Assembly: GCA_947258755.1 (NCBI GenBank)
Contig: CAMYJO010000014.1
Span: 1-64,000, forward strand
Direction of reading: 5' to 3'
DNA from: an uncultured Gammaproteobacteria bacterium
GTDB lineage: Bacteria; Pseudomonadota; Gammaproteobacteria; JAADHQ01
Length of the DNA: 64,000 bases
Part shown: in pieces, positions 27,331 through 44,904 of the stretch
Position numbering within the stretch: the first letter of the stretch is position 1
Layout: the number at the start of each line of letters is the position of its first letter
Translations under genes and position numbers: made by a program
Notes under the pieces: generated by a model
Database searches by the model: none
What the model was told of the DNA's origin: nothing
Seen by the model: only the letters and a program-made list of their open reading frames with translations

Positions 27331-27422
27331 TTACGCTTAAATGATTATGCAGGATATAATACTTCGGTGTGAAGCCAAAGTCCTGTTCAGAGCTTCCTTT
27401 GAAAAGATGCTGACATGGTCAA

Positions 27423-27447
27423 CAGAGGGAATCGACTGAATCCCTCT
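27423..27447 (-). terminator. Possible hairpin after the Cys-rich small gene
   Basis: AGAGGGA and TCCCTCT form a perfect seven-base-pair stem with a ten-base loop, 30 bases past the stop at 27476. There is no clear U-run on the minus strand, so it is a weak terminator or an mRNA end stabiliser. Confidence 0.35.
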
Positions 27448-27475: not shown

Positions 27476-27604
27476 TTATCCCCTGATCAACAGGAACGCA
27501 GGTATAGATATCGCAGTTGCCAAGAAGGCATAGAAAAGCCACGGACACCAGCCACCTAGATGTTTACATGCTTTTTTCAGATGACACCGTTTACAGTCAG
27601 CCAT
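27476..27604 (-). CDS. Small Cys-rich membrane protein, 42 residues
   Basis: Not recognised as a named family. The frame starts ATG 27604 after GAGG spaced seven bases, and encodes 42 residues. The N-terminal half is MADCKRCHLKKACKHLGGWC, with cysteines at 4, 7, 13 and 20 and two histidines; the C-terminal half is one membrane helix of about 18 residues ending in LLIRG. The lysine-rich N-terminus suggests it stays in the cytoplasm. The four cysteines could bind a metal or Fe-S cluster, or be redox active; this is inference. A perfect FNR-type box lies 166 bases upstream with a -10 element in between, so anaerobic control is plausible. Gene callers with a 60-codon limit miss it. Confidence 0.65.
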   Translation of the reverse strand: MADCKRCHLKKACKHLGGWCPWLFYAFLATAISIPAFLLIRG

Positions 27605-27769
27605 AATTTACCTCAATTTGGAATCATTCTAGAATTGCAAAATTAAACCGGCCAATAAAGATATTAATAATAAGGTTATAGCAAAATTACCAATGATTCT
27701 TCATTATTATCATTCTATATTGTTGTTTTGTATGTATATTTTACTTATATAAACAATTGTTAACAACTA

Positions 27770-27783
27770 TTGATCTAGATCAA
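27770..27783. promoter_or_regulatory. Perfect FNR/ANR-type box
   Basis: TTGATCTAGATCAA fits the FNR consensus TTGATnnnnATCAA at all ten fixed positions. On the minus strand a TATAAG -10 element lies at 27744-27749, which would put the start of transcription near 27737 and the box centre at about -40, the class II activation geometry. The gene it would drive is the small Cys-rich membrane protein. On the plus strand ggt is 262 bases away and no suitable -10 element lies at the right distance. Confidence 0.7.
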
Positions 27784-43893: not shown

Positions 43894-44904
43894 TCAATCG
43901 GGTATTCCGCTAAATGGAGCCGGCATGGCTGGATCGATACCCAATGTTTTCGCCATTTGTTCTTCGCTGCGGTCAATAAGAAACTCTACCCACAATGGAA
44001 AATGGTCTGAAACACGGTATGACATTTGCCTATGACTGAGTTCTTTATAAACAGCATCTGCGAAATTAATCACACCTGCCTCATTGCTACTCAACAGGTT
44101 CAGCTCTCCCATAAACCAGGCTATCTGGTCGTAGTACTTAGGCTTGGAATTATAGGTGGTTTTAAGATTCAATAGTTTTTTCGGCACCACGAGCCCCGTA
44201 GATGCAAAAGCCTTAAATAAAGGATTATCGCCGCGATCATCAATATTAAAATCACCCAGGACGATAAGATTGCAGATTTCCATGTCATGCTTTGTTCGTC
44301 CTATTATCTCATCGGCAATATAAGCAGAAAGTGCCTTGAGCTCTGGCAAGCGATCATTGGCACTTTTGCCATAACGAATATGCGCAGTTAACAGCGCGAA
44401 ATGTTCATTGGCTGAACGAAAGCCAACGATATAAGGTGTGCGATCAAACTGTTCAGTCGGATTACCCTCATCAGTCGCTGCTAGCACTATCTCTCCGGCC
44501 AGGCCTGAGGGCTGAACTCTGCGTTTATCATAGATATAGGCAAGACGCTCGGTATTGCCGCGCTCACCGATGGTAACATCACTGAATATGACGTCCCAGT
44601 CAGCACCAAGAAACTCATCGAGCAAATAACGAATGGCCGTTGTATTCCGCTTCACTTCCTGAACAGCAAGGACGTCGAATTTTCTGATGATCTCGGCAAT
44701 ATAGGCCAACGCTCTCAGATTTCTCTTCGGACTATCAGCATTCTCTTCCCACAACTGATAAAGGTCGCCGATATTGCGAATATTCCAGGTACCGATGATC
44801 AGGTTGCGGTCAACTTGTTTGGTTGGAATTCCTGATTCTGCAATACGCCGTCGCAAACGTGCAATATCTTCCGCTACTATGGGTGGATAGTCAGTATAAT
44901 TCAC
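43894..44904 (-). CDS. Endonuclease/exonuclease/phosphatase family protein
   Basis: A 336-residue EEP-fold hydrolase with IIGTWNIRNIG at the N-terminus, FDVLAVQEVKRN (metal-binding Glu), LGDFNIDDRGDNPLFK, and VSDHFPLWVEF. The residues for metal-dependent phosphodiester cleavage are all present. It could be a DNase or a phosphatase. It has no signal peptide, so it is cytoplasmic. Confidence 0.8.
   Translation of the reverse strand: MNYTDYPPIVAEDIARLRRRIAESGIPTKQVDRNLIIGTWNIRNIGDLYQLWEENADSPKRNLRALAYIAEIIRKFDVLAVQEVKRNTTAIRYLLDEFLGADWDVIFSDVTIGERGNTERLAYIYDKRRVQPSGLAGEIVLAATDEGNPTEQFDRTPYIVGFRSANEHFALLTAHIRYGKSANDRLPELKALSAYIADEIIGRTKHDMEICNLIVLGDFNIDDRGDNPLFKAFASTGLVVPKKLLNLKTTYNSKPKYYDQIAWFMGELNLLSSNEAGVINFADAVYKELSHRQMSYRVSDHFPLWVEFLIDRSEEQMAKTLGIDPAMPAPFSGIPD

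Follow-up and report, generated by a model that had tools for sequence, protein, structure and literature searches.

The minus-strand frame at 27476–27604 of the 64,000-nucleotide stretch analysed here (hereafter the window) is a real, unannotated gene. It encodes a 42-aa predicted membrane peptide with four cysteines, a member of an unnamed family that extends across at least five gammaproteobacterial families, and the evidence strongly suggests that in the genus of the window this gene is activated by FNR.

Coding evidence and distribution of the peptide

The translation of the frame is MADCKRCHLKKACKHLGGWCPWLFYAFLATAISIPAFLLIRG. Its ATG is preceded by TTGAGGTAAATTATG, with a GAGG ribosome-binding site at 27611–27614 (−) that both same-genus relatives keep as GAGGT. 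Cysteines 4, 7, 13 and 20 form a C-x2-C-x5-C-x6-C pattern followed by a hydrophobic stretch, and this pattern occurs once in the six frames of the window compared with 0.07 expected in base-shuffled windows. The ATG, the GAGG site, the spaced cysteines and the C-terminal hydrophobic stretch, taken as a membrane helix, had been listed by the first-pass annotation, and each one is present in the sequence. Homologues with conserved cysteines had been set beforehand as the test of the peptide; we found them in two same-genus species, at 73–75% identity and with 4/4 cysteines retained, and the claim of a peptide stands. Across the three species (40 codons), pS was 0.79–0.90 and pN 0.10–0.16, with 22 differences at third codon positions vs 3–11 at first and 5–6 at second positions. 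Because of this same-genus conservation, the large excess of pS over pN and the bias towards third positions, we conclude that the frame has evolved under strong selection at the protein level. In G003, a further genome of the genus that is 79% complete, we found neither a peptide match nor an FNR above the cut-off, and its incompleteness may account for both absences.

AlphaFold, given three sequences, places a helix at residues 20–40 with low confidence (pLDDT 66), and five Lys/Arg residues precede this helix while one follows it. The basic flank of a membrane helix stays cytoplasmic under the positive-inside rule, so the strongly basic N-terminus points to a single-pass membrane protein whose cysteines would lie on the cytoplasmic side, at the membrane surface. 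A heme-c reading of the CKRCH segment was rejected: the corresponding segments, CKHCR in L003 and CRTCR in L037, do not keep its histidine, and a cytoplasmic position of the head is probable.

Beyond the genus, a profile built from the three sequences matched homologues in G086 and G209 at E about 1e-14 and, weakly, one sequence in G350. Once extended with these matches, the profile identified members in 91/147 genomes and 28/48 genera of the order of G350 (Chromatiaceae-like, family f141), and the genus profile aligned with a profile of members from that order over 39 columns (hhalign 97%). Further members were found in families f125 and f137; several of those in f125, with a C-x2-C-x5-C-x7-C pattern and an FCP-x2-FY ... 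PAYL helix, are very close to the window peptide. The cysteines at positions 4, 7, 13 and 20 are invariant in alignments spanning five families, and an excess of third-position changes among f141 members supports coding there as well. Taken together, the alignments delineate an unnamed family with a C-x2-C-x5-C-x6/7-C core and one predicted membrane helix in at least five gammaproteobacterial families. Its members, membrane proteins of roughly 40–53 residues from purple sulfur bacteria and their relatives, are short enough to evade standard gene calling. Searches of Pfam, NCBIfam, PHROGs and PDB sequences with the peptide or the family returned noise only and no named family, a phylum-level sample of 299 genomes yielded no further match, and plasmids and viral contigs gave no convincing relative.

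Family f141 probably corresponds to Chromatiaceae, because photosynthetic reaction-centre genes occur in 59/147 of its genomes. A pmoA search, made on the guess that f141 might be methanotrophic, gave no match, but neither did the control genomes, which makes that search uninformative. The peptide is carried by 43/59 genomes with reaction-centre genes vs 48/88 without (Fisher p 0.04, uncorrected for relatedness), and we do not consider a link to phototrophy convincing.

FNR box and promoter geometry

The palindrome TTGATCTAGATCAA at 27770–27783, which has no strand, is the sole perfect FNR box (TTGAT-N4-ATCAA) within the window. A perfect FNR palindrome begins 175–179 bases before the peptide start codon in 3/3 same-genus species, and a probable −10 element, TATAAG, lies at 27744–27749 (−). 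Both the box and the TATAAG had been reported upstream of the peptide in the first-pass annotation; we recovered both, and show that two other species share the box and its spacing. In class II FNR promoters the box is centred at −41.5 (PMC4886647), from which we calculated that the −10 hexamer should be 29.5 bases away from the box centre. The best hexamers lie at 29.5 (TATAAA) and 30.5 (GATAAT) in the relatives, and at 27.5 (TATAAG) or 33.5 in the window. With a start site placed by inference near 27737, the box centre would fall at about −39.5. The class II spacing that had been proposed, with a centre at about −40, would agree with this start site, and the distances in the relatives are close to the calculated 29.5.

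The predicted 5′ leader, about 133 bases from the inferred start site (27605–27737, −), is of conserved length. It had no match in an Rfam search and its predicted structure is weak; an RNA element in the leader was rejected on these two grounds. It includes a conserved stretch, ATCTTTATTG, with the potential to base-pair with the ribosome site.

The genome that contains the window (G000) has its own FNR, which scores above the NCBIfam cut-off and whose cysteines correspond to positions 20, 23, 29 and 122. Perfect FNR boxes number 25 in G000, 19 in G001 and 25 in G002, compared with 0–1 for the reversed control pattern (1 in G000). Some of these boxes fall inside genes and not every box need be regulatory; several are placed in front of genes that would make plausible targets, among them a moaA-like gene and a c-type cytochrome-like ORF. 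Together, conservation of the box, the −10 geometry, the intact FNR and the enrichment of boxes strongly suggest that FNR activates the peptide gene in this genus. Upstream of homologues in other families we found no convincing box, and FNR control appears to be a feature of the genus and not a trait of the family. The original description, an FNR-controlled membrane peptide rich in cysteines, is supported by conservation in three species of one genus, but its FNR part does not carry over to the homologues in other families.

Two other short frames in the same genome also follow perfect FNR boxes. One, between two convergent genes, encodes a 66-aa unannotated-looking hydrophobic protein (MSWLRSLFITAIIAAGIALVIWLV...; L120 1611–1811, +; G000:C1 near 44036–44300) with the box 60 bases before it. 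The other encodes a 27-aa hydrophobic peptide, MASNRAKTIMVLIGFMCVIIILSNMLA, just 5′ of an aat-like gene (L128 1661–1744, +; G000:C9 near 24560), and its counterpart in a second species, MASNLAKTIMVLIGFMFAIIVLANLLV (L106, G002), is likewise behind a perfect box. These frames resemble the 42-aa peptide in being short and hydrophobic with a perfect box 60–110 bases upstream, but they have no cysteine cluster and their sequences are unrelated to it. These two candidates suggest that small membrane proteins missed by annotation can be sought by way of FNR boxes.

Possible roles of the cysteine head

Four cysteines are conserved in most members of the family, not in all. A second type, C-x5-C-x5-C-x6-C (L046, L051 and L157), is an additional copy in the genomes G086, G209 and G394. 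In the Chromatiaceae-like genera g214, g283 and g141, the sole copy has two or three cysteines, keeping either C-x5-C-x6-C (Cys2–4) or only C-x6-C (Cys3 and Cys4), and retains the DIPG motif and the VTQEL tail despite the cysteine loss. Cys3, Cys4 and the juxtamembrane motif are thus the most constant part of the family. Since the only copy in this subclade has two or three cysteines, a four-ligand site would be typical of the family without being universal, and it cannot be essential in all members.

We tentatively favour, at somewhat less than even confidence, an FNR-switched, membrane-anchored peptide whose cytoplasm-facing metal-thiolate site is docked to a membrane redox complex. Under this reading, the gene would probably be transcribed alone and, in this genus, turned on by FNR at low oxygen. 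With the basic N-terminus in the cytoplasm, the four cysteines would be presented beside the membrane as ligands of a single metal-thiolate site; its likeliest occupant would be a labile cluster, [4Fe-4S] or [2Fe-2S], with Zn as the alternative. Through its helix the peptide would dock to a partner in the membrane, which would probably be a complex of respiration or redox metabolism, and would be a small accessory or redox-responsive subunit of it. Metal binding would be in line with the FNR/WhiB1-like ligand spacing and with the conservation of four cysteines across several families. The C-x2-C-x5-C spacing by itself cannot separate Fe-S from Zn; by analogy with the labile Fe-S proteins, we infer that Fe-S is somewhat more likely.

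It is rather unlikely, in our estimation, that the cysteines hold a structural Zn and that the peptide serves as a simple adaptor in the membrane, comparable to the accessory subunit CydX and without any part in sensing or redox chemistry. Zn binding is common among four-cysteine heads whose spacers are short, and the variable spacing (x6, x7, x5) and the cysteine loss in the subclade would be in keeping with a structural site that can be dispensed with. CydX and other small proteins with one helix act as subunits (PMC6005532). Against the adaptor, the C-x2-C-x5-C spacing matches that of the labile Fe-S proteins FNR and WhiB1, and FNR control in the genus would fit a cofactor that is stable without oxygen, a weak argument.

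A bolder form of the Fe-S reading, which we regard as doubtful, is a stand-alone membrane microprotein with an O2- or NO-labile [4Fe-4S] cluster, convergent on the FNR/WhiB1 spacing, which would modulate a membrane redox complex directly and would be FNR-controlled in this genus, so that an Fe-S regulator would have a small Fe-S peptide downstream of it. Were a labile cluster bound, this would make the peptide an Fe-S protein of very small size, one that could couple a membrane complex directly to oxygen state.

The cysteine losses in g214, g283 and g141 bear also on a further reading, in which no metal is bound, the juxtamembrane Cys3/Cys4 motif (CNDxPGxC) performs thiol-disulfide chemistry or partner packing, and Cys1 and Cys2 are accessory. 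Members in these genera lose Cys1 and partly Cys2 while Cys3, Cys4, DIPG and VTQEL stay. Yet none of the four cysteines varies in the other families sampled, and two cysteines per chain could still make a site in a dimer, and we consider this reading distinctly unlikely.

Neighbouring genes offer no shared partner: none was conserved, and no operon partner can be named, among the family loci compared. The neighbours differ by family, being queA, a uup-like ABC-F gene, a DnaJ-like frame or none that is codirectional. In L161 (612–1357, +), the start of the DnaJ-like frame overlaps the peptide stop codon, and in L162–L164 the gene after the peptide is the uup-like ABC-F ATPase. In genus g263 (L053, L056, L057, L060 and L063), a conserved inverted repeat, GGTCGGCTC...GAGCTGCCGACC, immediately precedes the peptide ribosome site and might be a regulatory hairpin. 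Downstream of the window peptide, a phosphatase gene lies on the same strand. An operon with it was rejected, given a weak terminator-like hairpin in the gap (27408–27424, −; 1 found vs 0.9 expected in shuffles), a separate promoter-like site for the phosphatase and a gap length that varies among relatives.

Beyond the FNR box, with genes named from their sequences, the window has ggt, L002 has a 73-aa ORF and L003 has no close gene; the box can be assigned to the peptide because these divergent neighbours differ while box and peptide persist. It is therefore most improbable, and largely refuted by conservation, that the box serves ggt or that the frame is a mere leader for the phosphatase and its peptide non-functional: the palindrome is directionless, ggt starts 262 bases from it on the side opposite to the peptide and the phosphatase follows on the same strand, yet both relatives keep peptide and box without ggt, selection on the peptide codons is strong, the phosphatase has a promoter-like site of its own and homologues elsewhere adjoin other genes.

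Comparison with known systems

CydX, the small subunit of cytochrome bd oxidase, is not known to have a four-cysteine head. The peptide resembles it in being tiny and having a single membrane helix, and CydX is tied to respiration (PMC6005532, PMC4325964). No oxidase gene, however, adjoins the peptide.

WhiB1 (C9, C37, C40, C46; PMC6282962) is, like the peptide, small and endowed with four cysteines, and its ligands 37, 40 and 46 have the C-x2-C-x5-C spacing (PMC6282962). Wbl proteins are actinobacterial and soluble, carry a G(V/I)WGG motif and have their lone cysteine upstream of the other three; the peptide is set apart by being gammaproteobacterial and apparently membrane-bound, with the lone cysteine downstream and G(V/I)WGG absent.

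The same spacing occurs in FNR, where the [4Fe-4S] ligands 20, 23 and 29 are C-x2-C-x5-C (PMC6659574). The first three of the cysteines in the E. coli protein (C20, C23, C29, C122) are thus spaced as in the peptide, and the genome's own FNR reads ACQSCNLYELC where the peptide reads DCKRCHLKKAC. In contrast, the fourth cysteine of FNR is about 90 residues further on and that of the peptide 6–7, and the peptide has a membrane helix and no sensor or DNA-binding domain. An hhalign comparison of the peptide family with eight FNR N-termini aligned 11 columns only, at 6–7% probability, with no homology beyond the spacing. The likeness between FNR and the peptide would therefore be at most convergence on ligand geometry, not family membership. 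What is new here is the family of small proteins, as yet without a name, and not the kind of system.
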